Positions 1 to 34,008 of a stretch of DNA of 64,000 nt are shown here, piece after piece. Positions within the stretch are counted from its first letter, which is position 1, and every line of letters starts with the position of its first letter. Source of the stretch: Leucosporidium creatinivorum (lineage: Eukaryota > Basidiomycota > Microbotryomycetes > Leucosporidiales > Leucosporidiaceae); NCBI GenBank assembly GCA_001600635.1, contig BCKL01000003.1, positions 1,129,923 through 1,193,922 of the forward strand, given 5' to 3'. Made by a program: the position numbers and the translations under genes. Under the pieces are notes generated by a model, which saw only the letters and a program-made list of their open reading frames with translations, was not told the origin of the DNA and did no database searches.

Positions 1-434
1 CGCAACTCGTTACTCGTCTCGCTCGCTTCGACAGCTCTCGACTCGTAGGATCAAAGCTACAAAACTACAGCTCAGCTACACCTAAGCCTCGCCCCTCCTC
101 CCTCTCGCTCGCTCGCTCGCCGCTTTCGAAGCTTGGACAGACGGAACGCGTGCTGCTGCTGGAAGGAGTTGCTCAGAAATCGTTGCTGCTGCTTGGGTAT
201 TGAGGAAGATACCAAGGTGATCTATCTGCCCGTTGCTTCTGCTGTTGGCGAGTCGGAGTTGCGTGCCAGCGGCGGGAGAACTTGAGTCGGACTGGACGGA
301 GTAGCCAGTCGTCGAGCAAGCGCAAGCTGTTGCATCACAGCGACGAGACACGCAGAACATTGATGCGGCTAACAACCGCTCACGTCCACACTCGCTCCCC
401 CTGCTGACCTTCACCACCTCATGACCGAGCGCAG
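1..434 (+). promoter_or_regulatory. Part of the shared A/B spacer and 5' leader of F-box-like gene A1
   Basis: This is the A-proximal part of the divergent spacer that recurs at 16544-17262 (inverted) and 31787-32498. A shared block, TAGGATCAAAGCTACAA at 46-62, is also at 32114-32130 and, on the minus strand, at 16911-16927. Bases 217-434 look like a 5'-UTR intron: donor AAG|GTGATC, a CTGACC branch-point sequence near 400, and acceptor CGAGCGCAG directly against the start codon at 435. The expected divergent B partner would lie left of base 1. Confidence 0.7.
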
Positions 435-1918
435 ATGGCGCCAACCCTCCCCGCCGAGCTCATCAAGCTTATCCTCGAGCTCGTCTACGAGGACGTCCCA
501 CCCGTTCATGCCCTCACTCTCCTCGAAACCTGGGACAGCGCGGACGACGCCCCCTTCGTCTTCGCCTTCCGCCCCTTCCTCTCGGTCAGCAAAGCCTTCC
601 ACGCCCTCGCCCTTCCTTTCTTCGCTCGGGATCTCGCCACCTACAACTCAGCCAAACACTCGCCACAGTCATACGAACTGATCTCGAAGTACGACTTGGG
701 CGGTGCGGTGCAGATCCTTGCCCTCCCGAGTGGTCTCTCGACTCCGGAGCAGCAACAAATGCTGAACGCCTGCCGCAACGTCCACACTCTCTGCCTCAAA
801 TATACCCTCATCTCGACTGTACACCTTCCCTCCAACATAACCTCCCTTCACCTCAAGCACTTCCCGTACTTCGACCGATACGCCGCTTCCACCCTCGCCG
901 ACGCTCTCCCTCACCTCGCACGACTGATCCTTGTCGAGCTCGAGAACGTGCTCTACCGTTCCCCGCCAGTCCCGACCCGATGGAAACTGAAGGAGCTTGT
1001 GCTCCACGCTGTGCCTTTGACGCTGGAGGAACAAGCGTTGAGTTGGATCGCCGACTCCTCCGCCTCTTTGCAACTGCTCTCTATCACGAAGAAGTCAATC
1101 CTGAGCTGGCAGCCACCCTCAGACAGCGAGATCTCTCCCTCGTCAATTGTCAGCGGGATCTCCTGCATTCTCCCCTCGCTGCGCTGGCTCTCGCTGGGCG
1201 AGGGGGCGTCGCTGCCGGCGGGCTGCGAGGCTCTCGGCGAGAGGATGCTACCGTCGCTGGAAGTTCTCGAGCTCACTGTCGACGCCGAGTCGGCCGAGCA
1301 GCTCTTGGACCTGACTTTGAGCGTCAAACGAGTTTTCCTCACTATTACCAAGGAGGGAGTCGACGTCACAAAGGACTCGGCGATTGTTCAAGTCCTGCAA
1401 CACTTCGTGGAGACTCACCCGGCCCTTGAGATCTTCTCCATCGACGTGAACGATGGCGTGAGGCCTGAAACGCACTATGGCGACGACCATTCAGCCGACC
1501 CTGTAGAGCACGAATGGGCCGACGAGCTCAAATCGACCTGCACTCGCCTCGGCATCGTCTTCGCTTCGAACGATCCCGGCGCCTGGGGAACGGTGGGAGC
1601 CATATCGGAGGAGAGATCCGCCTCGTGTCTTGGATCCGAGAGAGCGTGCTTCTGCAATACGCTCGGAGGCTACCAGGATTGGGGGCACGGCCAGCCTCCA
1701 ATCTCGTTGAAGCCGTTCACGACGCGAGGCGGGAGATGTAGCTGAATTGGGCGGCCTGCCGTACATTTCGATGAGCTGATAAAAACTACAAGTTGATAAA
1801 ACTATACGGAGGGCCAGTGAAACCTGCCCCTGCAGGGAAACTGTCCGCCCCGTGGTCAACGAGAGTAGCCGAGACGAGAAGGGGAGCGAGACTGAGAAGG
1901 GGAGATGAGACCGAGCCA

Positions 1919-2138
1919 AGGGAGAGAGAGCCGAGAGGCGAAGGAAGTGTGAGATAAAGAGAGAAAAGAAGGGAAGGANNNNNNNNNNNNNNNNNNNNNN
2001 NNNNNNNNNNNNNNNNNNNNNNNNNNNNNNNNNNNNNNNNNNNNNNNNNNNNNNNNNNNNNNNNNNNNNNNNNNNNNNAGGGAGAGAGAGCCGAGAGGCG
2101 AAGGAAGTGTGAGATAAAGAGAGAAAAGAAGGGAAGGA
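1919..2138. repeat. 60-base direct repeat flanking the assembly gap
   Basis: Bases 1919-1978, immediately left of the gap, are identical to bases 2079-2138, immediately right of it. Both begin AGGGAGAGAGAGCCGAGAGG and end AAGGGAAGGA. Exact identity ending at the gap edges is what two overlapping contig ends would give if they were joined by a fixed spacer, although a real tandem repeat is possible. Confidence 0.85.
1979..2078. other. Assembly gap of 100 N
   Basis: Exactly 100 N, the conventional size for a gap of unknown length. Single N bases also occur at 2283 and 36753. Confidence 0.98.
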
Positions 2139-3346
2139 GGGTGGGAAGTCAAAAACCGGCTCGATCTGAGAGATGGCGAGCGATTAGAGACGGTACAACA
2201 GGCCTAGGAGAATGAGCTGCGCGCACCTGAGAGATGGCGAGCGAATACGAGTCCTTGATCAGGCTCGTGAGAGTCGACGGGCNACGATCTGCGACGAGGG
2301 AAAGGAAGTCGTGTGAGCTGGGCTCGGCTCGACTGAGAGGCTAGGAGCGCGCTGAAAGCTCACCTTTGCACTGTTGTGAAGGCGCGAAACAGGCAGAAAG
2401 AAAGTGCAGCGACCGAAACCAACGAGCGAGAGCTGTGGCGAAGGAGAGGGCGTCTAAGGTCAGCTCGAGCTCGCTCGGAGGCGGGCAAGAGGAGACGTAC
2501 CTTGTCAAGGCAACTAGACTAGCTGCAGGATCCGACGATGTCGACAAGAGGAGACGACGATGCGGACGGAGCTCAAAAGCTGTCGAGGGACGAGTTCGAC
2601 TTGAGCTCCTCAACCTTGGCTCTCGGAGAACAAAGAACTCACTCGACACAAAGGCGCCGGCCTTGCGAGGGAACTTGTCTGAGAGGGAAGGTGGCGATCA
2701 TGGCCGAGAGGCTGACTGATGTGATCGACTTGATGAGGTACAGGCTGCAAAGGCAATGGCGCTGTCTTAGCTCGGAAGCCGGATGCGAGACGGGCTCGGC
2801 GATGGGAGAAGAAAGGGAAAAACCCGCCGGACTCGGAAGTCTCGCGGCGCGGGGGGAGAGAGGATGTAGGAGAGTAAAGCTCACTGAGTGCGATTGAACT
2901 CCTGCGCCAATTCCCTCGTGCCTCCTCCAAAGGCGAAGCCGATCTCGCTACGACGTCCCTCTACAAGATCGGTGCATCTGCCGCGGCGATTACATGTGGC
3001 ACTCCGACGGCTCACACTCGGCAATCAGCACTGATGACTCGGATCCCCCCTTCGACTTCGACGCCGAGGACAGCGAGCAATGGGCGCACCTCTGGAGCGA
3101 GGAGAAGCGGATCGCGATGGGCCTCGGTGCGTCGACTTTGTCCGCTTCGAGTAGGTGGAGCTGCTGCTGACCTCTTGACTCAAACCATAGTCGCCAAGCT
3201 GGAGGAAGAGACTGCCGCCGACCGCGAGGAGAGTGTCGACGAACACGAGAAGACCACCGCCGAAACGACCGACTCGCTTTCGAGTACGCTCTTCTCGCTT
3301 CTCGCTTTGGGAACGCTTCGCTGACTCGAGGACCTTCGCAGCGTGA

Positions 3347-3686
3347 CAAGAAGCTATGAGAGATGCATAGGTGAGTCTCGCAATGCGCTCAGCCTCCTCT
3401 CAGGTTCGACTGACCGTCATTCTTGCGCAGTGAGGGCTCGGCGAGCAGAGACGAGTCGCTGTGGAGAGACGAGGAGGATACGTCGAGCTGCTTGTAGCTT
3501 AGCTGAGCCGTAAGAAACAACGATACGTGCACAGTAACACTCGAGCGACTGAGCTGGACCTGCGATAAGCGAGCTTGAACGAACGCCGAGCCTTGCCTCT
3601 CTCGTCTCTCCGCTCTCCACCCCAATCTACGAGTACACAAGAAATCGAAGCCCTCTTTCACATCACGATGAACGGCAGAGCTCTAC
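3347..3686. other. Duplicated 3' flank of gene A1
   Basis: Bases up to about 3500 match the inverted flank of A2 at about 14740-14898, including the shared GAGGATACGTCGAGCTGCTTGTA-like segment (read from 3472). The duplicated unit therefore includes sequence beyond the stop codon. No gene is supported, and the PUP1 stop follows at 3687. Confidence 0.55.
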
Positions 3687-5458
3687 TCAAGCATCGACCT
3701 CCATGGCGGCTCCCGCGCCCGTGCCCTCTGGCCCCGAGACCTTGCCGCCAGCGACGACGACCTCCTCGGCAACGACAAAGTGCTTGACCTCCTCCTTGGT
3801 CCAGGCGGTGACTCCCCTGTGTGTTCGTCGAGGTATAGGTCAGCTTCCAATCGACGCAAGAGATGCGGAAGGAAGGGGGGAGAGTAGAAACGCACCTCCT
3901 CCACTTGTAACTCTTCTCCTTCTTGACCTTCTCATTCGGCGTCCTATAATTCCTCAACATCTCGGTCCCCTTCTCCTCAATGACACACACATCGACATTA
4001 CTTCCCGACCCCAGATCGTTCCAAATTCCGGCCTCAATCGCCTCGCAGACAATGTCGATGGCGGCTTGCCTGCTCATTTTGGGCGTCCAGGAGGATTCGA
4101 ACACGGCCATGGCGGCGAGGGAACCGGAGCCCATGGTTACGTAGGGGAGCTTGTCGGTCGAGCCGTGGGGTGCGATGGTGTAGAGGTGGGGGCCTGAGGC
4201 GTCGATGCCGCCGAGGACGAGGGCCGCGCCGATTTGGCCTTGGTGTCTGGTGGTGGTGGTGGTGGTGGTGAGGAGGGTGGAAAAGGAATGAGGAGGATGT
4301 CGAGGAGAGGAGGAAGATTAAGCGAGGAGGGTGGATGGAGGGGGAGAGGGGAGAGGAGGAGGACGAGGATCAGCGACCGCCGATACCTCGATCTCTTCCA
4401 AGGAAGGAAGAAGCAAGACTCACTGGAAGAGCATCTGCTTCAGCATGGTCATGGCAGTGACGACCATGGGCTTCCTTCCCGTCGACAGGGCATGGAGGGC
4501 AATGTTGGAGCTGATGAGGGCGGTGGTGAACTCGGTGTCGGCCTGCGAGCGAGAGAACCGGGGTGAAGCGAGATGGAGGGGGTGAGGGGGTGGGAGAGGA
4601 CGGGCAGTAGAGAGGCGGCGAGGAGGGCGGTGTGGAGGATAGAGGATTGGGGAAGGGCGCGGAAGAGGAGCAGGTCGGAGGAGAGGTCAGCTCCAGCTCG
4701 CTCGAAATCGCCCAGCAGCGTGGTGAGACTGGTACGCACAGCAGTTCCAGCACCGGCGCAGCGGATTGACTCGGAGATGAAGTGGATCTGTTTGGAAGCA
4801 GCAGGGTCAGCCATCATCCCACCTCGGCGCTTCGCACGTCCTCAGCTCGCGCCGACTCGAAACGCACCTTCTCGCAGTTCTTGTCAGCGACGATGGGTCC
4901 CTCGGTGGCCTGTAGAGTCGTAGAATAGGTTGCGATCAGCCGACGGCCTTAGAGATTCGGCTACAGCTCTAGAGCCGAAGCAGAGCTACTCACACGCGTG
5001 TCTGCGCCAATGACGATTCCACCATCAAAGAGGCATCCTACGATAGTCGTTCCGGTCGAGGTGGCCTGTAGAATATAGTAGGAGATGGTCAGCGAGCTGC
5101 ACTGGTGCTGAGCGCTTAGTTGAGGTGCAGCCTGAGACGAGGACGTCGTAAGCCGCATACGCGTCCCCTCTGAGCTTGTGAAGAGGGTGCAGATGAGCAA
5201 CACCCGGAGCAGGGAGCAGCGTAGAGCGCTACAGAGTTACCCCGAGCTCCTCGACCAAGCTACAGCCCTTCACTGTCTTCGGCTGAGCTTGTAGCTCTAG
5301 TGAGGCCGCCTCATCCTCGTTGCTGCTGTGTCGCACCGGAGCTGTTATCCGGTATAGTAAGCGGTGCGAGAGCTCACCTTGGGTAGAGCGAGGTTACGCT
5401 GGCCGAGGGTGTTGTTGCGGAGGTTGTTGGAGAAGTCGAAGCCAGTTTGAGACGACAT
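3687..5458 (-). CDS. PUP1: Proteasome subunit beta type-7 (beta2), spliced
   Basis: Encodes the trypsin-like catalytic beta2 subunit of the 20S proteasome core. Joined exons give about 280 residues, close to yeast Pup1. The propeptide of about 32 residues ends ATSTG, and the mature enzyme begins at the catalytic threonine of TTIVG. Downstream come GADTR, the [11 protein letters not shown] segment, CAGAGTA and [12 protein letters not shown], all standard for beta2. The extended C-terminal arm, which in yeast wraps beta3, is present and ends EVDA. Introns are numerous, and several coding exons are only about 40-75 bases. An intron near 4249-4269 contains seven GGT units. The start at 5458 gives the N-terminus expected for the family. 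The gene is divergent from GVP36, sharing a promoter of about 420 bases. Confidence 0.95.
4249..4269. repeat. (GGT)7 microsatellite in a PUP1 intron
   Basis: Seven perfect GGT units on the plus strand (ACC in the transcript) inside an intron of PUP1, so no coding effect is expected. Confidence 0.9.
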
Positions 5459-5878
5459 GGCGGCGGCGGAGAGGTGAGAGGGAGAGCGAGTAGGCGATGG
5501 GCTGTAGGACGGTATGAGGCTGTCTGAGGATGTGTAGCCTTGTAGCTGTAGCGTGTGAGACGAGACGAGATGAACGAGAGAGAGAGAGAAGTGGGAAGCA
5601 GCGCCAAGTCTGTCGACGACGAGCTACGAGCTGCTACGAGCACCAAGCAAGCCAGCAGCTCTTCAACTCCCGCCTGTCACTCGCTACTCTTCAGCTTCTA
5701 CTTCTGTAGGTCTTTAGCTCTACCTTCCCTCTGCTGAGCTACAGCTGTATCAGACTCTACGCTGCTACCTCTTGCACCGGGTACCGCGGTGCTGACGCTC
5801 CCTCTCTCATCCAACCGTGTCCGTCCCTCCCTCTTCTCTCTTACATCTCACTCTGCAACAGCTCCCAACACCACCAAC
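5459..5878. promoter_or_regulatory. Divergent promoter between PUP1 and GVP36
   Basis: A 420-base spacer between two start codons on opposite strands. It is pyrimidine-rich on the plus strand just before the GVP36 ATG and contains short GAGA runs near 5578. No specific factor site could be assigned. Confidence 0.5.
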
Positions 5879-7420
5879 ATGAACTCGTGGAAAACCTTTC
5901 AAGCTTCCGTCACCCAAGCTGCCTCGCAAGCAGCCGGAGCAGCAGCAGGAGCCGCCGCGTCTGTCGACTTGAACTCGACGGGAACCAAGCTCTCGAGGGG
6001 GTTCGCTACTTTCCAACAGACCGTCAAGGAGAAGACGGGCGGCGTAGGCACCGACGACATCACCGAACTGCCCCAAGAGTACCTCGACTTGGAGCGCAGG
6101 GTCGACGGCCTCCGCACGGCCCATCTCAACTTGCTCAAGGTCGCCAAGTCTTACGAGGGCGCTTATGATTACCCTGTGCACATCAACGAATCGGTCGCCG
6201 AGATTGGGGGATCCCTCGCTCACAACTTGAGCTACTGGGCCGCTGCTGCTACCAAGGGCGAGTCCTCTCGTGAGGTGGGGGCTTGTTGAGCGATAAGCTG
6301 ATCTGTGGTCGAACTACAGGAACCAACCTCCCTCAACCCGCTGTCGCCGAGGTTTGCTCTTCCGTCCCTCCGACTGCTCGCAAGACAGTCCCGCTGACCC
6401 TCTCCTCCGAACGCCGAGCAGAAGCCCGTCGAGGTCCAAAAGACGCTCCCTCACGCCCTCTCGCGCGCTTCCGCCTCCGGAGCAGTTGAAGTCGGTCCTG
6501 GTCGTCTCGCCAACGTGCTCAAGACCTACGCCGTCGTGCAGGACAAGGTCGGAAGCGCTAGGTGAGCTCACTCGCCGGCCGATAAGGCTGCGCCGAGCTC
6601 GGGAGGGGAAGCTGATCGGTCTTCGGATGAGAATGCAGGACCATCCAGGATGAGGAGATTGCCAAGAACTTCCTGCAGCCCTGGTCGGCGACCCTCAACT
6701 CGTCGCTGCAGGCCGCCATCAAGTCGAGGCAGAACGTCAAGGCTGCGAGGTGGGTTCGGTCTGCGAAGCGCCTCCCTCAGAAACTTGAGCTGACAGATCG
6801 TTCGACTTGTAGGATCTCTCTCGATGCTCTGAGGGGAACTCTCAAGAGCGCTACTGGTGGACCCCGTCAGGAGCAAGCTAGGCTGGAGGGTGAGTGTCGG
6901 CGCTCGCTCCTCTGTTGCGTGTCCATTGCTGATCATCCTCTCTCTCCCCTTTACCACCCTCGCACATCTCCTTCTCGCCTTCCTCATCACGCACACTCCC
7001 TCGCCTCATCACTCCCATCATCGCCGCCCTCCCTCACTCCCGACAGTGGAAGCCGCCGAAGAGAAGCTCGTCAACGCCACCGAAGAGGCCATCAACCTCA
7101 TGCGCTCGGTGCTCGACAACCCCGAGCCCATCAGGAACATTGCCGCGTTGGTCAAGGCGCAGCAGCAGTTCTATGCTGAGGCGGCTGAGGTGAGTTCGGG
7201 GCTGAAGACCAAGAGGCTGAGATGGAGAGATGGAGAGCTGATCAGCGGATGTTTCGGATTGAACAGGCCCTCGCGAGCGTGCAGGGAGAGATTGAGGAGG
7301 CTAGTGTGCAGGCTGAGGCGGATTACCGGTTCGTCGTTGCTGCTTCTCGTCTCTCGGTCGGCGCCGATGCTGACCCCTTCGCTTCTCTCGTCCCTACACA
7401 GCAAGAGCAGAGCTCAGTAG
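5879..7420 (+). CDS. GVP36: BAR-domain protein, Gvp36 family
   Basis: A peripheral membrane protein of the BAR superfamily; Gvp36 of yeast acts at Golgi and endosomal membranes. Eight exons join to about 330 residues, against 326 in yeast. An Ala-rich amphipathic N-terminus is followed by the signature around ITELPQEYLDLERRVD and AYDYP, then long helices (for example TIQDEEIAKNFLQPW) expected to form the curved coiled-coil dimer. The last exon encodes only KSRAQ plus the stop, after an intron at about 7329-7401. The frame is open upstream to 5789, but the ATG at 5879 is preferred because it starts the conserved MNSWKTF helix. Membrane bending by the BAR dimer is family knowledge. Confidence 0.88.
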
Positions 7421-7834
7421 ATTCGACCTCTCGACGAATTGAAAACGAATGGACTCTCTTTCCCTTTTCTCTGCCTTCTGATCTAGCATACCCCCTCCTT
7501 GATCTCGAACTCGGCGCCGAGTCGGCGCTGCTTCCTCCTCCCCTTCTCTCTCCTCTGCCCTTAGACCTACTCCGGTTTCTCTCTCTCCTCTTTGCCCTTT
7601 TACTGCTATGCGCATTCGTTTCCTCTGTGCTGCACTGCAGCAAGAGCGAGAAACAAGCCTCGCGAATTACCCCGTTACAAATCAACTAAGAAACTCGGAA
7701 TTGACGATTAGCACGGCCGATTAGCACAACTTTGCTCGCCCGCCTCCCTCTCCGCTCCCCCAGCTTGGCCAATCGCCGCGCTGCCCTCCGATCGTTCGCT
7801 GTAGGGTAATCCCACGCCCTACTGCTCCCCTCTG
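7421..7834 (+). promoter_or_regulatory. Spacer between GVP36 and VID21
   Basis: This 414-base region must hold the GVP36 3' end and the VID21 promoter. It is pyrimidine-rich. The plus-strand frame running across it is a read-through of the last GVP36 intron and is not a gene. Confidence 0.5.
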
Positions 7835-11717: not shown

Positions 11718-11966
11718 AAGGGTCGACGGCTTCGCAGGAGTGAGGGGGGAGGAGGGCGCTTGTCGAGGTTCGGGAGCTGTGCGAGTGATATATAGCTGTA
11801 GCGAAATAAAGAAGTGAATCGCCGTGACTTTTTGAGCTCTAGAGGAGATCCTTGTCGGCAGAGAAGCGAAGCGGGACACCTCTCGGCGGGCGAGTGATAG
11901 TTGCGACGAGCTGCTCCTCTTCATTACGACATCTGTACCCGACTAATGTCCTCCCGACTCTCTGCC
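11718..11966. terminator. Convergent 3' spacer between VID21 and the p24 gene
   Basis: A 249-base spacer between two stop codons. It contains the AT-rich segment GAAATAAAGAAG near 11800, a plausible polyadenylation region for VID21. Confidence 0.4.
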
Positions 11967-14503: not shown

Positions 14504-14898
14504 GAGGGCGGCTGGAGGCGAGGTCGTCGGAGAGGATACTGTAGCGCTAGTGTTGTATGACTGATATCCTGACCACGATCCGATCGAGGACGCATTGCGA
14601 GCAGGACCGAGCAGGGTCGATTAGTTTCGGCGGCGTCAAGCGAAGGACTTCTCGGCGATCAATCGGACTGCTTGTCGCCTTTTCGCGGGTAAGGCTCGCT
14701 TGCTCGACTCCGACTGTATGCGTATCGCGCGTTGTTACGACTCAGCTAAGGTACAAGCAGCTCGACGTATCCTCCTCGATTCTCCAAGCGACTTGTCTCT
14801 GCTCGCCGAGCCCTCACCGCGCAAGAATGAGGGTCAGTCGAACCCGAGAGCAAGCTGAGACAACAATAGGCTCACATATGCATCTCTCACGACTGTTG
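14504..14898 (-). other. Duplicated 3' flank of gene A2
   Basis: The part from about 14740 to 14898 is an inverted copy of the A1 flank at about 3347-3500. The rest is the convergent spacer after the orphan gene. No gene is supported. Confidence 0.5.
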
Positions 14899-16543
14899 TC
14901 ACGCTACGAAGGTCTTCGAGTCAGCGAAGCGTTCCAAAAGCGAGAAGCGAGAAGAGCGTACTCGAAAGCGAGTCAGTGGTCTCGGCGGTGGTCTCCTCGT
15001 GCTCGTCGACACTCTCCTCGCGGTCGGCGGCAGTCTCTTCCTCCAGCTTGGCGACTATGGTTCGATTCCAAGGGGCCAGCAGCAGCTCGGCGCGCTAGAA
15101 GGGGCGGAGTCGACTCACCGAGGCCCATCGCGACCCGCTTCTCCTCGCTCCAGAGGTGCGCCCATTGCTCATCGTCCTCGGCGTCAAAGTCGAGAGACTG
15201 GCTATCCGACGATCCCGTGCTCGTGTTCGAGCTGGAAGAATCATCCTCGTTGCGCTCGCGGCAACGGCATGGGTCGCCAAAGTCGTCCATGGGCTCTGTG
15301 TCCTGCCAGCATTGGCAACCCCATCGATCGCACACGCCATCCCCGTCATCGTAACACTCTTCGGGGTGATAGCACTGACAGTTGTCCGGTCGGTGAACGT
15401 CCTGTCGGCCTTCGACTGTCCAGACCGAAGGATCGTTCGAGGCGAAGGTGACGTTGAAGCGGGAGCAGAGCGTCTTGAGATCCTCCGCCCACTCGTCCTT
15501 GGGAAGGAACAATCCACCGAAATCGACCGAAGAGAGCTCCAGAGCTGAGTGCGTCTCTACGATGCGTTGGAGGATCTGAACGAATGGCGAATCCTTTGAG
15601 ACGTCGACTCGTCGGTCGGAGACGGTGATGAGGAGGCGCTTGAGGGTGTACGAGATATCCAGGAGCTGGTCCACCGAGTCTCGGTTGACTGTGACCTCGA
15701 GACGCTCCAACGCCGGCAGCATCCTTTCGCCGAGCCCCTCACAGCCGGCGGGCAGCGTCGCTAGTGGGCCTTCGCCGAGCGAGAGCCAGCGTAGCGAGGG
15801 GAGGTCGGTGGCAATATTGGGAATGAGTGAGGAGGGGGTGATTTTGTCGTCATCGTCGTCAGCTTGATGCAATCGGGATGGGTTGGTCGTGATTGAGAGG
15901 AAGCGCAAGGAGGAGGAAGAGTCGGCGATCCAAGCTAAGACTCGTTCCTCCAGCGTCCAGGAAACTCCGTGAACTACAAGATCCTCCAGCTCCAGCGAGT
16001 CGTGACCGGCGAGAGATCCTCACCTATGTCCTCGAGGTCGACGAGCATCAGGCGGTTGAGATGAGGAAGCGAATCCGCGAGGATCGAGGCAGCGTCGTTG
16101 TTGAAGTTGGGGACTCCTCGAAGGTGCAGCGTGGTGACCCTCGCGAGAATCCCGACAGAGGAGGTCAGGGAGCTCTGGAGGCAGAGACTGCGAAGATTGA
16201 TGCAGCCTCGGAGCAAGTCCTCCTGCTCCGAAGTCAGGTGGGAGGCCCTCGGGAGCTCAAGGATTTGCACCGCGGCCTCCAAGTTGTACTTTGAGAGGGG
16301 GTTGTATGGCTTTGGTCTGTTGCCCTTCCGATCGCCAGTGGCGAGATCGCGGACGAAGAAGGGAAGGGCGAGGGCGTGGAAAGCTTTGCTGACGAGGAGG
16401 AAGGGACGGAAGGCGAAGAGGAAAGGGCCGTCGTCCGCGCGATGCCATGAACGAAGAAGATCGAGTGTGTGAACGGGTCTGACGTCCTCGTAAACGAGCT
16501 CGAGGATGAGCTTGACGAGCTCGGCGGGGAGGGTTGGCGCCAT
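14899..16543 (-). CDS. F-box-like/LRR protein A2, frame-disrupted or rescued by a short intron
   Basis: Second member of family A. The first exon encodes MAPTLPAELVKLILELVYED and the start of the leucine-rich region. Compared with A1, one base is missing near 15989-15995, which brings a TAG at 15974-15976. However, a GTGAGG donor at 16023 and a TTGTAG acceptor at 15974 would remove exactly 50 bases and restore the frame (DI joined to VHGVSWTLEE). The second exon continues the repeats, passes an unusual cysteine cluster (CQCYHPEECY, CDRWGCQCWQD, CRCRERNEDD) and ends in an acidic Ser-rich tail with QSLDFDAEDDEQWAHLWSEE. Two further short introns lead to TGA at 14901-14899. The ATG at 16543 lies directly behind a 5'-UTR intron acceptor. 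A role as SCF substrate adaptor is inferred from the F-box-like N-terminus. Confidence 0.6.
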
Positions 16544-17262
16544 CTGCGCTCGGCAATGAGGTGATGAAGGTCAGCAGGGGGAGCGAGTGTGGACGTGAGC
16601 TGTTATGGCACCTGTGGGCTCTATACCTCGCTTCCCCGCGAGCTGTAGCAGCTTGCGCCCACTCGACGACTCGCCCCGTCCCCCCGAGTCGCTTCCTCCT
16701 CGCTCCCAAGCACCTCCGACTCGCCAACAGCAGAAGCAACGGGCAGATAGCTCACCTTGGTAGCTTCTGCGATGCACAACTAGTAGCAGCAGCAACTTCT
16801 GAGCGACATCTCAAGCAGCAGCACGCGTTCCCGTCCGTCCAAGCTTCGAGGAGGGCGAGCGAGCAAGGAGGGAGAGGAGGGGCGAGGCAGTTGTAGCTGA
16901 GCTGTATTGTTGTAGCTTTGATCCTACGAGTCGAAAGCTGTCAAATCGAGCGAGACGAGAACGAGCAAATTGTGGGAAGAGAGCAACAGACGCTGGCCCC
17001 TTCTGAGCTCGGTCCCTTCTCCCCCGCTCGGCGCTCGAACCCTCTTCACTGCGCAAGAGGGGCTGTAGAGTGGCAGGGCGGTAGCTGTAGCGGTCTGAGG
17101 CTGAACTGATAGCTGCTCGAGCTCTGATCTACAACAGAACAGCTCTCAGTCCAACGCCGAGCTCTCCCTCTGCAAGGCCGAGTCTCGAGTCGATTCGCCT
17201 CTTGTCCTCCTACCACATTTTGTTCTCGCTGCTTCGCCTCTCACGTATCGTCTTGGACGACC
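16544..17262. promoter_or_regulatory. Shared divergent promoter of pair A2/B2
   Basis: A 719-base spacer between the A2 start (minus) and the B2 start (plus). It is collinear with 31787-32498 (inverted) and with 1-434. Bases 16755-16544 are the A2 5'-UTR intron (donor CCAAG|GTGAGC, branch CTGACC, acceptor abutting the ATG). The high likeness of this region among copies, greater than that of the encoded proteins, suggests shared regulation of both genes or recent sequence exchange. Confidence 0.75.
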
Positions 17263-18798
17263 ATGGAACAGCCAGCCGAAGCTACCCGCAAGAAGAGTAA
17301 CCGCTTTGGTGCAGCTCGCCGTCGCCTCAAGAGGGAGCGAGACCTCGCCGCCCAACTCGCCCAACTCGCCGTCCGCGACAACGAGCAGCCACATCTCCCC
17401 GCCGAGCTAGTCTACCGCATCCTCCGCATCGCAGCACCCGTTATCACGGACTTCAACGAGCTCAAAGGCCTTGCTGGCAAACGGCGCAACCGCTTCCTCA
17501 AGGCCGCCTCGCTCGTCTGCCGACTCTGGAGGGACGAGTCGCAAAAGCTGCTGTGGGAGTGCGTCGTAATCAGGAGCGACGAGGGTGCAAGGAGCTTCCT
17601 CTTGAGCAAGCACATGGGAAGGCAGGCCAATGTCCTAGTCGTATCGCCCCCCGAGGAGGAGACGGTCGAGGATTTGCTCGTGGGCGAGCTGCTGGCGACC
17701 TCAAACGGAGTCAAGGCGCTCGCTTTGGCGGGGGTAGCAACAGTTATAAGGAGGAAGCGCCCGAGAAACCAGGAGCACCTCACCTTCCCCGAGGTTCTCT
17801 GCTCCTCCGCCCTCCTCGGTGAGTCCCCTCTTTGACTTGATTGCTTCGCAAGCTCACAGTCCCGGCGCGCAGGCCTCAAGCATCTCGAGCTTCATCGCTC
17901 CATCCAATACTCCCCCGAGTGGGGTCCTCTCCTTCATCGCCGACTTCCCTCCCACCTCGATAAGCTCTCCGTCGAGGGCGACTGGCAAGAGCGCGAGGAT
18001 GGGATGCCTAAAACTCTCGTCGTTGGCCTGCTCAACAACACCGCCAAGGACGTAGCCCTTCATCTTCGAGCTGCTCGCAACCTCAACAGAGGTGGATACT
18101 ACTCCGTCCCCTTCACCTTCGACGTTGAGGACGACCGGGGAGCGGAGGGCGGCGCCGAGGCCGGTTCGGATCCCAATGCACGAGACGCCTTCCCATTCAC
18201 AAGGAACCTGGTCACTACTCTGCAGCTGCGCCTCAACGACGAGGATATCTATGAAGGGTTTGACGGTCCCAGCCTCACCAAATACCTTCGTCGCTGCGCC
18301 TCCCTCCAGCACTCAAGGTCGATCTCCCCTCTGAGAAGCTATTTGGCGCCCTCTCTCCTCCCTTGCAAACCCTTACACTCATCCATCCTCGCACCTCTGA
18401 CTGCTTTGAAGTCATTAATTGCCTTGAGGAGGGCTATACCAGCCTGGATCTGCTCAGCCTCGAGTCGCTCGAGGTCATCGTTCCCGCCTCGAGGACGATC
18501 ACGCTGGACGACGAGGGGGGTTGCTCGCCCGAGGAGCTTAGAGAAGAGTGCAGGAATCGTGGCATACGATGCTTCAGCACAGCAGGCGAGTCTCTCAGAC
18601 TTGAACACCTCGGCGATCCCAATCCTAACCCTGTCTCCCTCTATAGATTACACTGTCAACGAGAGCGAGGCGGAGAAGGATGATATATCGCGTTTCTTTG
18701 AGGAGGAGGTCGACCATGGGAGCGAGGGCTCCTACTCTGAGGACACGAGCTCGGGAACGGAGTCGGATGACGCCGAGGGACACTCTCCAGCTTAGCCT
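17263..18798 (+). pseudogene. F-box-like protein B2, probably frameshifted
   Basis: Family B member. The N-terminus MEQPAEATRKKSNRFGAARR is basic, followed by a helix (LAAQLAQLAV) and an F-box-like segment HLPAELVYRILRIAAPVITD, then SLVCRLWRDESQKLLWECV, the usual ending of an F-box plus linker. Exon 2 (from about 17874) is leucine-rich. Against intact B3, one base is missing near 18312 (CAC-TCAAG where CACCTCAAG is expected); the conserved stretch LQTLTLIHPRTSDCFEVI lies in another frame. The last intron begins with a GC donor (GCAG|GCGAGT) matched in B3. The final exon encodes an acidic Ser/Glu tail ending AEGHSPA and TAG's relative stop TAG/TGA context at 18793-18798 (TAG at 18793). Without correction the downstream frame would give a scrambled product. 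It may be a young pseudogene or an assembly error. Confidence 0.6.
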
Positions 18799-25797: not shown

Positions 25798-26232
25798 GGT
25801 GCGAATGAAGTAGGAAGGAGAGGAGCGGGAGATTGACTCGCCGTCCTTTGAGCTCCGAGCGGGTGTCGTTGGCTAGCCTCCGCTGACTCGAGGGAGCTCT
25901 GAATAGTAGTTCCAAAACCAACAGACCCTATCACAGCCCCCCCGAGCCTCACGATGCCTTACAGGCGCTGCTCTCTAGCTTGTGGCCCTTCGCGTGCCCG
26001 ACCGAGCGAACCGCGATCTTCTAGACGTTGCGCTGCTGCAGGTTCCCCAGTAGCGAGTCAAGAGACCACCGATGCTACCCAGCTCACCGTGCCTTCCTCC
26101 TCGACCGCCCAAGAAGCAGATCCTCGCCTTCTCCTTCCTCTCGGCGCCGACATCCGCGCAGCAGCCCATCGCAGTGCTGTGACTCTAAGCCTTTACATCG
26201 CCACCTGGATGAATGTCTATACCTACTCGCAC
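25798..26232. promoter_or_regulatory. DED81 promoter and SurE-like gene 3' flank
   Basis: A 435-base spacer between genes on the same (minus) strand. No supported gene or RNA. Confidence 0.45.
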
Positions 26233-27587
26233 CTATAGCCTCCACTTGAGTCCCTTCTCAGCGACGTTGGCGGACGCAGGAATCTCGGCGGCAGCGAAGG
26301 CCGATTTGATGGGAGTGATGGAGATGGCGCCGCCCTGTGAGTGTAGAGAGGTCAGCGGACGGAAGGATGAGACCGGATTGTGCTACTCACCAACAGAGCA
26401 TGAGTGTCGGTGCCCTCCTTCTGCCAGAGTGGAGAGAGACGTCAGTCGAGGGGCTCGGCGAAGACAGAATCGCTCGAGTCCCAGAGGAAACCACATACCA
26501 ACGAGCTCGGCGTAGGGTTGACCAGCGCTCCAATCTCGGGTGCGAAGACAAACTTGAGCGGTCGACTGAGGTGCTCCTCGTGCATCTTCAGGCAGTCCTC
26601 CTCGCCCTCCTTGACCGTCGCAGTCTCGTCCTCGTCTTGAGCGATGGCGGCGGGTCCACCCTCATCACCATGAGGTACAGGCGCTTCCGCGATGGATTTG
26701 AACAGGCGGTGGTAGGAGGTGGGAGCCATTGTCGTCCATTGGATCTCGGGCGAGGACTCGAGGATCGAGGGCATGAGCTGTGGAGGGCAGTAGGTCAGCT
26801 TCTTCCCTGCAGCTCGCCTTACAGGAGCTCACCGGCACGTTGACCGAGTAGACGTCGCACTTGTTCTCCCCCTCGCCAAAGCCGAGCTCCCACAGCCGCT
26901 TGACGACGTCGCAAGAGACCCGAGCAGCAGCATCGGTGATCTCCTTCCCTGGCGGCTTGTAGTGGGTCATGAGACCCCAGCTGAGAGCGATGGCGGGTAC
27001 GCCAGAGATGGCGGCTGACATGGCGGCGCCGATAGTTCCCCTGCGAGGAGGGAGGGTTAGCCGAAACTCGACCCGAGCATACGAAGAGAGGCTCACGATG
27101 AGAGAGCAAAGGCGGTAGAGGTGTTGCGGCCATAGTTGGGACCCGCGATGACCATGTCAAACGAGCCAGGAGGGTACAGCGAGTGCAAGGCGATGTTGGA
27201 GCAGGTAGCTGGTGACGCCAGAGGTCAGCGCGGGGGAAGGCTACTTCGAAGCACCGGCAGCAGCTCACCAGGAGTACCATTTAGCAAGATCCACTCTACA
27301 TGCTCTCCCTCCTTGAGCGGTCGAGGCAGATCAGTCCTCTCTCCTTGAGTGCCATCCGGTCCCTCAGGATAGTAATACGTCCCAGTCGTCTCTTGCGCGA
27401 TGAGGTAGGACTTGGACACCCACGAGCGCTGAGAAGAAGGTACAACGACCTTCACTTCCCAACCTGACCGAGCCAGCTCTTCGGCGAAAGGGTACACGAA
27501 GGGCGAGTGTCCGGGATCGGGAGGGCCATCGTCGTTGGTGATAAGTACCCGAGGCGGGCGGGCTGCTGAGGCTTGACGTGTCGACAT
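26233..27587 (-). CDS. SurE-type 5'/3'-nucleotidase or acid phosphatase
   Basis: A metal-dependent phosphomonoesterase of the SurE fold, related to Yarrowia Pho2 and to the N-terminal domain of yeast Pby1. About 345 residues from several exons. The metal-binding Asp pair is in VLITNDDGPPDPG near residue 15. The second metal site is in NGTPATCSN, and the conserved loop reads GPNYGRNTSTAFALSSGTIG, with AAMSAA after it. The protein ends KGLKWRL. There is no TTL (tubulin-tyrosine ligase) domain behind SurE, which distinguishes it from Pby1. No signal peptide is visible, so a cytosolic location is likely. The substrate (nucleoside monophosphate or other phosphoester) cannot be read from sequence. 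Confidence 0.88.
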
Positions 27588-27776
27588 GTCTCGATGAGCG
27601 CCGGTGCTGGGGTTGCCGATGAGATGAACAAGCGAGGATGAAGTAAGAGCGAGAGAGGTGGAGCCCGCAACGCGCGGCAGTCAAGGCCGGGTTGCAGTAG
27701 GTTGCAGTGGCCTCTCAGCTGTTCGAAGGCGCTATGGGAGCATCTGCGATAATCGATTACACTGCTAACAGCCTCG

Positions 27777-28646
27777 CTACTCCAAAGTGTGGTACCCTCC
27801 CCCCTCGGCGCCGTGCGAAGGTGCTTGGTAGGCCGGAGCGGGAGGGGCCGCCGAGACTGGAGGTGCGCTGGCTCGAGCAGACACAGGTCGAGGAGCATCG
27901 AACGAGTCGGAGCTCTGGTGGTAAGAGCTCTGCTGGGTGGGCGCCGACCAGACTGGAGAAAGCGAGCCGAGAAGCCATCGCCGAGGGGTCAGCTTCGGCC
28001 TTCTTACGGTCATCAAATGGCAACTTACGAGTCTCGTTGGGCCTCTGCTGTGATGGTGGGAATCCTCCTGAGCCTCCGCCGTTGGTACCAGGGATCGAGA
28101 AGCCGCCTGGCAGGTCGAAATGGTGTCCGCGCTCGCGAAGGTGGCCGAGGGCGGAGAGGAGGGTGACGGGCTACAGGAGAGCAGCATGGGTTAGCTGATG
28201 ATAGTAGGGTAGCTTGTAGCTAGTCTACGCACCTTCAACAGGAAGTTGAGGACGATCAAGAACCAAGCGAGAGTGCTGGGAGTATTGTCGCCGACGAGCC
28301 AGAAGAAGTCGAGCAACGCCGAGACGCCGAACAGCAGCGAGAACTGCGCATGTATCGTCAGCTCCAGCGCTCAAACTGTCTGGTAACTACGCCCAGAAGC
28401 ACTCACGTTCCGAATCGCCTCCCCTGCGTCAGCGCCATCCTCCTTGCTCGAGATCACCAGGCCGTACAGCGCCAAAGGCAGATTCCACACGGGCGCGGCC
28501 GACAGTGAGCTGACGAGCGACAGTCCAGCATGGGCGAGCAGCAGGCGCGAGATGTCGAGATGGCTTAGGACGTCGCTCTTCGTGGAGGAGCAGAGGGTCA
28601 GCGAGGGGTACAGAATGCAGCATTGCCAGCTGCTAGTACTCACCAT
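27777..28646 (-). CDS. AGTRAP-like multi-pass membrane protein
   Basis: About 200 residues with three to four hydrophobic helices: ISRLLLAHAGLSLVSSLSAA, WNLPLALYGLVIS, FSLLFGVSALLDFFWLV and LAWFLIVLNFLLK. This order, with a charged loop after the second helix, resembles the type-1 angiotensin receptor-associated protein family (AGTRAP), whose fungal members have no established role. The tail is Pro/Ser/Ala-rich (HHFDLPGGFSIPGTNGGGSG; APPAPAYQAPSHG) and ends YHTLE. The first coding exon is only the ATG (28646-28644), followed directly by a GTGAGT donor; the next exon starts SDVLSHLDIS. This fits the frame and the absence of any other suitable ATG. The gene is divergent from the dehydrogenase at 28906. 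Confidence 0.65.
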
Positions 28647-28905
28647 GCTAGTTGAAAGTGCCGAGAGGAGTTGCGCAGCGGAATGGCGAAGGGAGAGCGC
28701 CGTCTAGCGTAACTCGCTTCTTACGCTCCTACTTGTTCGAGCGTCTCGCTGCTTTCGTCTCTGCTTGCAGTACAGTCTCGAAAGCCCGATAGGTGCGTGC
28801 AGTGCTCTCTCGGACCTCTACACCCACTAACCTTTGCTCGGCGCCGGCAGCAGCAGCTCCCCCCACCTCGTCAGCTCTCCTCGGCTTTTACTCCGCTACA
28901 ACACC
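28647..28905. promoter_or_regulatory. Divergent promoter, AGTRAP-like gene and D-2-hydroxyacid dehydrogenase
   Basis: A 259-base spacer between opposite starts. It contains a pyrimidine-rich stretch ahead of the plus-strand ATG. Confidence 0.45.
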
Positions 28906-30007
28906 ATGTCGACTCCCTCGGGGCACTCGATCATCATCTTAGACGATTACCAAGATGCCAGCTCGACTCTTGCCGACTGGTCCAAGCTCTCGCACATCCC
29001 CCTCACCGTCAAGCGCGAAGCGATCCCCGCCGAGCAGCTCGTCGAGGTCCTACAGCCGTACACGATCATCCATGCGATGCGGGAAAGGACCAAGCTCACC
29101 AAGGAGCTTCTCGAGCAGCTGCCGAACTTGCGGCTCATCACGACAACGGGCATGAGGAAGTGAGTCGGCTCGGCGGAGACTGCTTCAATCGAATACTCGG
29201 CTCACGCTCCGCTTCCACAGCCGAGGCATCGACCTACACGCCGCTCGATCTCTGGGCATTACCGTCTCGGGCACCAGCGCCAACGGCAACGCCTCAACCG
29301 GCACCTGCGAGCAAACTTGGGCTCTCATCCTCGCCCTCTCCCGCCGCCTCATCCCCGAATACGACGCTCTTCGCTCTGAAGGATGGCAGACTGGCATGGC
29401 GACAGGTCTCGCTGGAAAGCAGCTCGGTCTGATTGGAGTAGGCAGACTGGGGAAGCAGGTCGCTGTCGTGGGAAAGGCGTTCGGGATGAAGGTTGTGGCT
29501 TGGAGCCCGAACTTGACGGATGAGAGGGCCGAAGAGGCAGGTTTGGAGCGCGCCAAGACGTTAGAAGAGCTTCTGAAGAGCTCGGACGTCGTCTCGGTCC
29601 ACATCGTCCACTCGGAGCGGACGACGGGCCTGCTCGGCGCTGAGCAGCTCGGCTGGCTCAAGCCGACTGCCTTCCTCGTCAACACCTCGCGAGGGCCCAT
29701 CATCGACGAGCAGGCGCTACTGGATGTCGCTGGCAAGATTGGTGGAGTAGGGCTCGATGTGTTCGACCAGGAGCCGCTGCCGAAGGAGCATCCGCTTCGC
29801 TCGGCGTCGAAAGTCGTTCTGTCGCCTCACATGGGTACGTGATCTCATTGCGCTCGCTGAAAGATCTCGAGCTAACCTTTATACCCCGCAGGCTACGTCG
29901 ACGACACCTCGTACATCCCTTGGTGGCAACAAACGCCCGAGAACATCCTCGCTTTCCTCGACGGCAAGCCCATCCGCGTCCTTGACCTCGATAATCCCGC
30001 CTTTTAA
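28906..30007 (+). CDS. D-isomer-specific 2-hydroxyacid dehydrogenase
   Basis: An NAD(P)-dependent reductase of the D-2-hydroxyacid dehydrogenase superfamily; substrates in the family include glyoxylate, hydroxypyruvate and other 2-oxoacids. Three exons give about 345 residues. The Rossmann fold is marked by GLIGVGRLGKQVAVVGKAFG. Catalytic residues are visible: Arg in NTSRGPIIDE, Glu in DVFDQEPLP and His in VLSPHMG. A conserved ITTTGMRNRGIDL stretch precedes the cofactor domain. The ATG at 28906 follows a short untranslated leader and begins STPSGHSIIILDDYQD, giving the expected first beta strand. No targeting signal is seen. The exact substrate remains open. Confidence 0.9.
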
Positions 30008-30209
30008 GCTGAAAGGCGCGGAATGAAACTTAGCTGGATGTTTGGGAGCAGCTTGGAAGGCTTTCTGTCGCTGTTCAGAGCCGAGAGCTAGGCTCGGCGA
30101 TGGCGCGCAGGGTTCGCGCTTTCGCGCCAAACAAGTCGAGCTCGGGCTCCTCATCACACGCCTTTCATAAGTGGTCACCTAAACATGACTCTGCAAGCTT
30201 GAGGCCTCC

Positions 30210-31786
30210 CTAGTAGTGGAACTCAATCGACACGTCCGAGAGTTCAGACTCGTCTGACGCCGAACTCGATGTCGACTCCCAGTCTGATCCATCCTCGTCA
30301 CCACCGCTGAAGCGCATCTCCCTGCGCTTCATCAACAGCTGATCCTCAAGTTCTTCCTGAATTGTATTGTACTCCTCCAGTGGTAGCTCTGTGGGAAAGC
30401 TGATCAGCCGGCGGCGCCGAAATGAGAGAGCGAACCAACTTGCCCATGGTGTCGAAGCAGTTGATGCCGCGACGACGACACTCCTGCCTAAGCATGTCTC
30501 GCTCCCTGCTCCAAGCTTCCTCACTCTCCCTTCTTGCACAGCCGTCTTTAGGCAAGGCCAACTCGATCGACTCGAGAGCGCCGACGCTGAAGAGCTTGGC
30601 CACGAGGCTCTGTATGACTTGAAAGCAGTCGGTGTCGCTCGGATCGATGAGGGTGAGGGTTTTCAGAGGTCGAGGGAGGAAGGAGAAGAGGGACGCGTAG
30701 TCGGGGGAGTTGGTCGTGAGGTGGTCGAGAGCGATGCACTGGCTGAGGAACCTTGGGAGGCCGAATCCCGGGTCGTCGTGGTAGATGTCTGAGTTGTTGA
30801 GGTGGAGACGTAGAGTGGTGATTGAGTTGTTGGTGAAGGGACGCCTGTTTAAAGCGTTGGTGTTGTCCTTCGCCTCGTCCTCCGAGTCCGAGCCCCAGTC
30901 GTCGTCATTGGCGAAGAGCCAGGGATAATCTTGCCCGCGCATCCCGTGAGGGTGTGTAGCCGCTCGTAAGCGAAGCGAGACGTGCTTGGCCCTGCCGTTG
31001 AGAAGGCCGACCAGGAGGTGCTTGATGTCGCCTCTGTCGTAGACCGAAGCGCCCCAAATCCCCTCAATCTTCAACTCGTCAAGAAGGAAGGGCAGTCGAC
31101 GGTGGAGGTAGAAGTCGGGATCGACGTATGGTACGGACCGGTGTACCTCGAGACGTTCGAGGCCTGCGCAACGAGGAATTCAGCTTCGGCGTGACCGTTC
31201 CCTTACGCCGACGGCCCCGCTCCGCCAACTGACCGACGAGCTTCTTCGACGCGAACACCTCGGGGAACGTCAACGGACCGGGCGTGGCCCAGCCCGTTCC
31301 CTTTGTCGCAATGATGCCCGACAGTGAGACTCCCTGATAGCCCGACGAGTTGACGAGCATCTTGGCAGCAAAGCTCATCAAGATGGGACGTCCCTCCGGC
31401 GGCGACACCACGAGTACCTCCGTAGTCCTTCCTGCACCCTTCCCCGACAGAAAGCTCTTGACTCCCTTCTCACTGCGAATCGTCACGCACTCCCATAGCA
31501 ATTTTTGCGCCTCGTCCTTCCAGAGTCGGCAAACGAGCGAGGCCGATTTGAGGAAGTGGTTGCGCTGCTGGCCAGCAGGTCCTTTGAGCTCGTCGAAATC
31601 GCTGATAACGGGTGCAGCGAGTCGGAGGATGCGGTAGACTAGCTCGGCGGGGAGGCGAGGCTGCTCGTTGTCGCTGACGGCGAGTTGAGCGAGTTGGGCG
31701 GCGAGGTCTCTCTCCTTCTTGAGGCGGCGGCGAGCTGCACCAGAACGGTTACTCTTCTTGCTGGTAGCTTCGGTTGGCTGCCCCAT
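30210..31786 (-). CDS. F-box-like protein B3, the only clean copy
   Basis: Three exons join in frame to about 480 residues. The N-terminus, MGQPTEATSKKSNRSGAARR, is almost the same as in B2. An F-box-like segment RLPAELVYRILRLAAPVISD and SLVCRLWKDEAQKLLWECV follow. The middle is leucine-rich (NNSITTLRLHLNNSDIY, PRPLKTLTLIDPSDTDC). The last intron uses a GC donor (ATGG|GCAAGT) at the same position and phase as B2. The tail is acidic and Ser-rich, ending VSIEFHY with TAG at 30212-30210. By family analogy it would recruit substrates to an SCF ubiquitin ligase; the F-box match is by pattern only, and the partner Skp1 contact cannot be shown here. It is divergent from A3 over the shared spacer. 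Confidence 0.75.
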
Positions 31787-32498
31787 GGCTGTGTGATTCG
31801 GAGTGGTGAAGCGACGAGACAAAAACGTGGCAGGAGGACAAGCAGCGAATCGATTCGAAGCTCGGCCTTGAGGGAGAGCTCGGTGTTGAACTGAGAGCTG
31901 TTCTGTTGTAGAGCAGAGCTCGGGCAGCTATCAGTTCAGCCTCAGACCGCTATAGCTACCGCGCTGCCACCCTACAACCCCTCTTGCGCAGTGAAGAGGG
32001 CTCGAGCGCCGAGTGGGGGAGAAGGGACCGTGCTCAGAAGGGGCGAGCGTCTGTTGCTCTCTTCCCACAATTTGCTCGTTCTCGTCTCGCTCGCTCCGAC
32101 AGCTCTCGACTTGTAGGATCAAAGCTACAAAGCTACAGCTCGGCTACACCTCACCCTCGCCCCTCCTCTCCCTCCTTGCTCGCTCGCCCTCCTCGAAGCT
32201 TGGACGGACGGGAACACGTGCTGCTGCTGGAGAAGTCGCTCAGAAGTCGCTGCTGCTACTTGTGAGTCAAAGAAGCTGACAAGGTGAGCTTTGTGACCGT
32301 TTCCTCTTGCTCTTGGCGTGTCGAAGATGCTCTTGAGCGGGGAGCAGGCGATGGAAGGGAGGACGGAGCCGTCGAGCCGGCGCTATTCGCTGCTGCATCA
32401 CAGCGAGGAGACGCACAGAGCATCGATGCAGCCTAATAACAGCTCAGCTGAACACTCGAACCACCTGCTGACCTTGCATCCTTCATCACCGAGCGCAG
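31787..32498. promoter_or_regulatory. Shared divergent promoter of pair B3/A3
   Basis: A 712-base spacer, collinear in inverted order with 16544-17262. Bases 32284-32498 are the A3 5'-UTR intron (donor AAG|GTGAGC, branch CTGACC, acceptor CGAGCGCAG abutting the ATG). The sequence near 32114-32130 is shared by all three copies. Confidence 0.75.
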
Positions 32499-34008
32499 AT
32501 GGCGCCAACCCTCCCCGCCGAGCTCGTCAAGCTCATCCTCGAGCTCGTCTACGAGGACCTGCAGCCGCTACATCGCCCCTTTCCATACACCGCCTGTGAC
32601 TTTGGCGATGACGCCGTCTTCACGCGCGTGTTCCGCCGCCTTACACTCGTCAGCAAAGCTTTCCACGTCCTCGCGCTTCCCTTCCTCTTTCGCGATCTCG
32701 CTGCTAGGCGGCGCCCTAGTCTCAGCAAGATCCACGCCGACAGCACACACGAGCTAATCAGACTTCTCTCGAAGTACGACATGGGTGGAGCGGTGCATGT
32801 GCTCTTCCTGCCAGGCGACGAGGAGCTCACAACTTGCGAGCAGGGAGAAGTGCTCCGCGCCTGCAGCAAGCTTCGTACTCTCTGCATCCAGGAGCCGCTT
32901 CCCTCTTCCATACAGCTCCTTTCCACGGTCACCACGCTCCACCTTCGTCAATTCCCCTGGTTCGACCGACACGCTGCCTTTGCTCTCGCCACCTCCCTCC
33001 TCACGTCAAACGCCTAGCCCTGCTCGAGTTAACGCAGGCAGTTCACCACCCCGCTACAATTCCAACCGGCTGGAGACTCGAAGAACTAGCGATCCAGAGG
33101 GTGCCCTTGGAGATGCAAGCGCAGGTGGGGGCGTGGATCGCCGAATCGTCCTCCTCCTTGAGGATTCTCTCGCTTACTACCCAGCCATTCAACTCTCGGG
33201 AGAACCCAGCTCTGGATGACGACGAGGTCCTTTATCCATATTCAGTCATCCCCCAGATCCGCTCCGCCCTCCCCAAGCTACGCTCGCTTCATCTCGCCGA
33301 AGACTCGTGCCTTCCGGTCGACTGTGAAATTCTCGGCGAGGAGACCTTCCCTTCCCTGGAAGTGCTCGACATCACTGTGAACGAGAACACGGTGGATCAG
33401 CTACTCGATCTCTCCACCTCAATCCGAAGGGTGTCCATCACCATCACCATCACGAGCGCCGAGTTCGAGTTCACTAGGACGTCGACCGCCGTCCGCACGC
33501 TCAAGGCCTTCGTCAAAGCTCATGCACGACTCGAGCTCTTCGCGGTCGACCTGGGAGACAGGACGACTTCCAAGGCTAGGTGGGCGCAGAAGCTCGCCGA
33601 CGCGTGCGAGAAGAGGGGCGTGGACTTCGCCTGCAACGACTCGGGAGCCATCGACTCGGTGGGAGACAGGGCTTACGACGGCAAGGCTGCGATGAAAGAC
33701 GAGGAAAGCGACGGAGTGTATGACACCGACTCGGAGGAAGAGGACTTCGACTACGATGACGAGGAAGATGAGCTCTGGACAAACCTTTGGAGTGACGAGA
33801 AGCGCTTTGAGATAGCTCTCGGTGAGGTTTTGTCCACTTCGTGCTCTGATCCGCGGCTCAACCGCCCACCCTCAACAGCTGCTAGTATCGAGGATGCGCT
33901 GGTAAAATCTCAGGATGTTTCGGCTGACGAAGCGGGCTCGTCGACCTCGAGTAAATTGCCTCTCACGCTGCTCGGCGCCAAGCTGACGCCGTTGCCTCCG
34001 CAGACTAG
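32499..34008 (+). pseudogene. F-box-like/LRR protein A3, probably frameshifted
   Basis: The N-terminus MAPTLPAELVKLILELVYED is identical to A2 over twenty residues. The first frame ends at 33017 (LATSLLTSNA) because one base is missing near 33000: the conserved PHVKRLALLELTQA lies in the next frame, which then runs through the leucine-rich region (LPKLRSLHLAEDS, FPSLEVLDITVNE) to the acidic tail (DGVYDTDSEEEDFDYDDEED, then ELWTNLWSDEKRFEIALG). Two introns follow at the same places as in A1 and A2, and a TAG at 34006-34008 ends the gene. No intron that would rescue the frame was found. Pseudogene or consensus error cannot be separated from this sequence alone. Confidence 0.6.

Follow-up and report, generated by a model that had tools for sequence, protein, structure and literature searches.

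What keeps the spacer between two divergent genes more alike among copies than the proteins encoded on either side of it? We addressed this question for a stretch of 64,000 nucleotides from Leucosporidium creatinivorum (the window; GenBank assembly GCA_001600635.1, contig BCKL01000003.1, positions 1,129,923 to 1,193,922), in which an initial annotation had described three back-to-back pairs of F-box-like genes from two families, A and B. The window belongs to contig C3 in an assembly of 27.7 Mb and 63 contigs, whose short introns, gene density, and G+C content of ~60% are in keeping with a fungal genome; this one assembly of a single strain, taken without relatives, formed our data basis. Re-mapping of the coordinates bore out the layout of A and B genes around a spacer, including an inverted copy. 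Three A/B head-to-head pairs lie around 34 kb of C3, and the first continues left of window base 1 with 279 spacer bases and the whole of B1 (read in locus L004). The paired layout is a real feature, and duplication of the A/B pair as a unit is supported. As to the cause, we consider it probable that recombination centered on the 5' ends acts in birth-and-death families of genes resembling F-box/leucine-rich repeat (LRR) genes, whose 3' recognition parts have a separate history.

Silent divergence along the A/B pairs of contig C3

The spacers of pairs 1, 2, and 3 (713, 719, and 712 bases) are 84.6, 83.5, and 83.6% identical among the pairs. A 17-base motif, TAGGATCAAAGCTACAA, occurs in all three, as had been noted, and nowhere else in the whole 27.7 Mb assembly (reversed-pattern control: 0). 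Spacer and presumed intron of the 5' untranslated region had been called close to identical, which is too strong: in 75-column blocks, identity is 83–95% over the B-side two thirds of the spacer, but 57–85% over the A-side third, where the presumed intron lies, before it reaches 91–92% at the A start. Likewise, the spacer is more alike than the LRR parts of the proteins, but not more so than codons 110–185 of B1 and B2, which show 92% amino-acid identity and 0.07 silent substitutions per silent site (dS), vs. 1.34 and 1.55 in the comparisons with copy 3.

Differences at four-fold degenerate sites were counted for pairs 1–2, 1–3, and 2–3. Codons 1–110 of B yielded 8/52, 6/52, and 11/47, which is lower than past codon 110 (32/105, 39/75, and 43/76; P = 0.030, 1.4e-6, and 2.6e-4) and about the same as in the spacer (108/701, 116/703, and 115/703, i.e., 0.15, 0.17, and 0.16; P = 1.00, 0.44, and 0.23). 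The corresponding counts for A were 10/34, 7/23, and 5/24 in codons 1–70 and 45/96, 48/80, and 45/87 in the rest of the gene (P = 0.057, 0.011, and 0.006). Pooled over the three pairs, the proportion of differences climbs stepwise outward, from 0.12 through 0.16 and 0.22 to 0.46 in B, and from 0.19 through 0.36 to 0.54 in A. Low silent divergence reaches approximately the first 70 codons of A and 110–185 codons of B. In the blocks located between ~110 and ~620 bases inside B, which cover the intron as well, B1 and B2 are 91–99% identical; identity of the copy 3 B gene falls to ~50–60% beyond ~410 bases. Agreement patterns of the three copies are clustered along the alignment (558 runs vs. 702.6 expected; P = 2e-4, the floor), and the same applies to B (P = 3e-4), spacer (P = 0.001), and A (P = 0.008) separately.

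Constancy of the promoter alone predicts even silent divergence along the gene; since the observed divergence is uneven, it points to recombination. Conserved control as the main cause is not supported, since the silent sites of B adjoining the spacer are as alike as the spacer itself. One of the two explanations proposed initially, gene conversion limited to the spacer, holds in its first half, as silent sites and mosaic signal fit conversion, and fails in its second, as low silent divergence enters both genes.

B pairs on C14 and A genes on C4 and C7

A six-frame search for the B family gave 105 matches (E ≤ 10); 67 were arranged by position (66 at E 2.9e-5 or better), with clusters on contigs C14, C35, C40, and C1. 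Close neighbors on C35, C40, and C1 are in tandem. The ends of C35 and C40 (L023/L024) share 3444 identical bases with the same spacing of three B matches; these contig ends overlap or are duplicated, which adds about three to the number of B genes counted there. On C14, the 18 matches form seven adjacent head-to-head B/B pairs and three unpaired genes. Repeated head-to-head pairs around a near-constant spacer are thus found on C3 (three, 712–719 bases) and on C14 (seven, 815–896 bases between matched coding sequences). In six of the seven C14 pairs, an alpha start (MEAQ or MEA) faces a beta start (the seventh is L040, whose beta gene could not be modeled), and spacer and alpha-like start are still recognizable upstream of the unpaired gene L037. 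The seven spacers are 79–92% identical, and the pairwise homoplasy index (PHI) test gave P = 0.001, its floor (n = 7).

Silent differences in codons 1–34 amounted to 0.12 within C3, 0.15 within the tandem genes, 0.18 within alpha, and 0.43 within beta, and to 0.38–0.76 between groups, with nearly the same protein. In codons 41–111, they were 0.22 within C3, 0.51–0.57 within tandem, alpha, and beta, and 0.54–0.65 between groups. A silent-site constraint common to the first codons was considered and rejected, the silent sites being far apart between groups despite the near-same protein; a cluster-specific constraint could still be an alternative.

The 25 N-terminal codons from the PTAHG motif separate 8 alpha from 7 beta C14 genes by a single split (support 97/97). 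The rest of the protein was compared among 4 alpha and 6 beta genes; alpha L034L (a near-copy of L035R), L038L, L040R, and L042 and beta L034R and L040L were set aside as near-copies, broken, or truncated. Here, the labels need three changes each, a number equaled in roughly half of 500 shuffles (252 and 262), and neither group held together in any of 200 bootstrap trees (approximately unbiased (AU) test, P = 0.034 and 0.017). As judged from these trees, the 3' parts on C14 no longer carry the alpha/beta label. Single loci show breaks of similarity as well. L034 and L035 are 97–100% identical across most of the alpha gene and ~480 spacer bases, beyond which identity falls to 74–87% and then to ~50% in the beta coding sequence; this would be one alpha gene with two partners. 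L039 and L040 are a milder case, with identity on the beta side of 93–98% from ~+500 to +900, vs. 77–90% in the remaining spacer.

For the A family, 16 matches resolved into eleven loci. Their partners are B at three, a third family, C, at four on contig C4, and weakly C at one on C7 (E 0.004); no partner was identified for three C7 loci. Among the eleven A loci of the whole assembly, no A/B pairs beyond the three on C3 were found. Family C (MSS..EALxxLVKAVQQRDVLFVLYHL), with nine matches on C4 and a tenth on C7 and with no Pfam hit that reaches a cut-off, stands head to head with A at ~450–480 bases on C4, with more C copies nearby. On C7, A_669 shares 83–94% identity with A_657 upstream (−644 to ~−91) and 73–94% with A_623 in the coding sequence, the remaining comparisons among these three genes giving 34–58% upstream and 48–70% coding. 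A_669 clearly reads as a hybrid in which the upstream region of A_657 is joined to the coding region of A_623. The C4 genes at 1313, 1341, and 1272 kb have 650–780 upstream bases in common (66–99% per block); past ~+58, A_1341 drops to 43–63%, whereas the other two stay at 77–93%. Further observations on C7 are two A genes standing head to head ~5 kb apart at 651–670 kb, and a conserved upstream region common to A_657 and A_669.

Favored explanation and its alternatives

Pair structure, silent-site gradient, mosaic signal, the combination of one gene's upstream with another's coding region, and the disappearance of the alpha/beta label from the C14 3' parts are plain in the data, and the evidence from C3, C14, and C7 together points to sequence exchange among copies. 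Under the explanation that we consider probable, A and B would be expanded F-box/LRR-like adaptor families with fast turnover, and their genes would consist of a 5' part (promoter or shared spacer plus approximately the first 35–110 codons) and a 3' recognition part. Within a cluster, the 5' parts would be kept alike by recombination among copies, in the simplest case gene conversion, which would act most strongly near the promoter and fade into both genes. The 3' parts, under weak purifying selection, would accumulate differences at the usual silent rate, occasionally being joined to another promoter or another partner; C3 would represent three copies of one A/B pair, most genes of which are decaying. 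The spacer is a putative working two-way promoter, and we infer that conversion may start there, e.g., at meiotic breaks.

Several findings weigh against this explanation. In codons 1–70 of A, divergence is somewhat higher than in the spacer (P = 0.05, 0.09, and 0.57). Six B genes outside divergent pairs show the same 5' pattern, with silent differences of 0.13–0.21 in codons 1–35 and 0.51–0.75 beyond; therefore, a shared spacer or head-to-head layout is not required, and we rejected the divergent layout as a necessary cause. The beta genes are only weakly homogenized (12/14 pairs, vs. 14/14 for alpha). In the rest-of-protein tree, no strongly supported branch forces alpha/beta mixing, one row is long-branched, and quick trees had been viewed before the label test. 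Both copies of L034/L035 have undetermined bases at the same codons, and their similarity is perhaps an assembly effect. Finally, the single-base lesions in the C3 genes described below could be sequencing or assembly errors.

A possible alternative, although we regard it as somewhat doubtful, is that the C3 cluster is mostly a graveyard of decaying duplicates, perhaps with assembly errors, whose pairs have no function. Five of the six C3 genes look damaged, only B3 reading clean, whereas elsewhere a simple model with one intron left 6/24 B genes cut short or not modeled; of six A frames elsewhere, two (L014 and L030) shift by eye. B1 carries AAG at the position of the B2/B3 start ATG, with no in-frame ATG up to the upstream stop; B2, A2, and A3 each lose the frame by one base, at sites that are not homopolymers (by eye). 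A1 matches the A2 3' end again only past ~1.3 kb of additional sequence, which contains an assembly gap. The same 54-base string stands on both flanks of the gap's N run, 1979–2078 (starts 1924 and 2084; window 1919–2138), and represents either a repeat there or contig ends that overlap and were not merged. Against a graveyard, the ratio of replacement to silent substitution (dN/dS) is well below 1 in every segment, which points to function for most of the history; B3 is clean, and a candidate 50-base GT..AG intron could restore the A2 frame. This stretch spans the frame loss (window 15940–16030) and is without a clear branch-point motif by eye. C14, C4, and C7 would be left unexplained. As regards C3, decay is compatible with 5'-centered recombination.

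We see a small chance that the spacers are recombination joints of a repertoire system, in which breaks at the shared promoter or, on C14, spacer inversion re-pair recognition halves with promoters and partners, and new co-regulated F-box adaptor pairs are built continually, perhaps for non-self recognition. Spacer inversion as such, i.e., recombination between inverted alpha and beta starts that flips the promoter and swaps the recognition halves between sides, appears improbable for C14. Inverted matches of 85–277 bases (69–80% identity) do flank all seven spacers, and 3' parts that no longer carry the alpha/beta label would fit. However, a clean flip is not seen between any two loci, the same tree would arise if alpha and beta genes converted each other's 3' parts, and the present repeats are rather diverged for recombination. 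Flips could not be demonstrated because the 3' parts are too diverged to separate them from conversion.

It is similarly unlikely that diversifying selection on the LRR parts, as proposed initially for the substrate-binding regions, drives the proteins apart faster than the spacer. dN is highest in the LRR parts, and among the C14 segment medians of dN/dS (0.15–0.74), the maximum belongs to codons 130–210 of alpha. All 30 of 30 segment-by-pair comparisons on C3, however, gave values of 0.26–0.68 and none above 1, and silent sites climb along with replacement sites, unlike under protein-level selection. The C3 values are pairwise averages per segment and rough because dS is close to saturation outside the core, which leaves room for selection at single sites. 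Improbable, too, is purifying selection on a shared two-way promoter without any need for recombination: the spacers are 84–85% identical where LRR parts are not, and some C14 spacer blocks are invariant in 7/7, but it accounts neither for four-fold sites in B codons 1–110 as alike as the spacer, nor for mosaics within B, spacer, A, and the C14 spacers, nor for upstream regions moved between coding regions on C7.

Known systems and protein families

Head-to-head LRR genes are also known from divergent pairs of plant nucleotide-binding LRR (NLR) genes, which are thought to be co-regulated; these encode immune receptors, i.e., different proteins. A co-expressed pair of SCF adaptors duplicating as a unit had been regarded as undescribed. 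This stands at most for F-box genes, and within the open-access literature searched: queries linking F-box genes to conversion, divergent arrangement, two-way promoters, or concerted evolution returned no such F-box pairs among the matches listed. It does not stand for the layout with conversion in general, and the pairs are new for F-box/LRR-like genes as far as searched, the kind of system being known already. The silkmoth chorion A/B genes stand strictly head to head on a short, conserved promoter that the two families share; promoter and first exon are more alike than exon two, and both conversion and pseudogenes occur (PMC4639761). Our loci resemble them in these features, but chorion genes encode insect eggshell proteins in dense tandem arrays, whereas the genes here are F-box/LRR-like, dispersed, and partly re-paired with a third family. 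In Babesia bovis, about half of the ves1alpha/ves1beta family is organized in divergent pairs, an alpha gene facing a beta or another alpha gene across a two-way promoter, and the remaining genes are single; segmental conversion has made the coding regions mosaic (PMC7485966, PMC4413850). Divergent pairs plus single genes and mosaics from conversion are common to both systems. Unlike our predicted intracellular adaptor-like proteins, ves products are parasite surface antigens with single-locus expression, and homogenization is strongest at the 5' end here. Nematode F-box expansions are, in the sections available, large, clustered, species-specific families with many pseudogenes (PMC5041008), which resembles the present case; head-to-head paired units were not found in those sections of the paper.

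If 5'-centered recombination is the correct explanation, likely ubiquitin-ligase adaptors would have a recognition end that evolves as a module separable from the promoter-plus-signaling end and, should expression follow the spacer, whole sets of fast-changing recognition domains would come under one control. Because silent divergence grows with distance from the spacer on both sides, the loci could be used to test whether conversion starts at divergent promoters. They also call for caution, as regulatory constraint does not necessarily follow when promoters resemble one another more than the adjoining proteins do. Coordinates of the window features are listed in Table 1.

Table 1. Features of the three A/B pairs in the window
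Feature	Window position	Strand	Remark
Spacer of pair 1, in-window part	1–434		Further 279 bases at C3:1129644-1129922
A1, F-box/LRR-like reading frame, 436 amino acids, normal 3' end displaced	435–1745	+	
Extra sequence between A1 frame and normal A1 3' end	1746–3051		N run 1979-2078
A1 3' end	3052–3569	+	85.7% identity to A2 3' end (window 14679-15193), 519 columns
A2, frame lost by one base at ~codon 186	14679–16543	-	
Spacer of pair 2, 719 bases	16544–17262		
B2: F-box-like exon 1, intron, LRR-like exon 2; one-base frame loss at ~codon 330	17263–18795	+	
B3, sole gene of six with no visible lesion	30211–31786	-	3' end assigned visually
Spacer of pair 3, 712 bases	31787–32498		
A3, one-base frame loss at ~codon 168	32499–34177	+	End is the second frame's stop; exon end not mapped

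Structure prediction fits the proposed resemblance of both families to F-box/LRR proteins, A being weak in the F-box region. The A model is good except there, where model confidence is low, and the B model is good in its N-terminal part only. Best matches among solved structures for both were the FBXL-type F-box/LRR proteins FBXL2, FBXL17, and TIR1, although sequence identity in the F-box rows is as low as 10–16%. In the Pfam search (window A pieces and four paralogues), A matched no F-box family at E up to 1. For B, F-box-like family PF12937 scored 18.8 bits in B1, 16.8 in B2 exon 1, 19.5 in B3, 14.3 in L020, and 24.7 in L022, with no match in L041R; only L022, one of six scanned sequences, reaches the cut-off of 24.3 bits. 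Profile searches against the PDB returned SKP2 for A at E 0.027 and nothing firm for B (best E 0.11). The A and B proteins may work in SCF (Skp1–cullin–F-box) ligases. A basic stretch, PTAHGKRSGAARRKLKKE, N-terminal of the F-box, is near-invariant in protein among the examined C14 and C35 B genes (L019–L023 and L034–L043) and is possibly a localization or docking signal.

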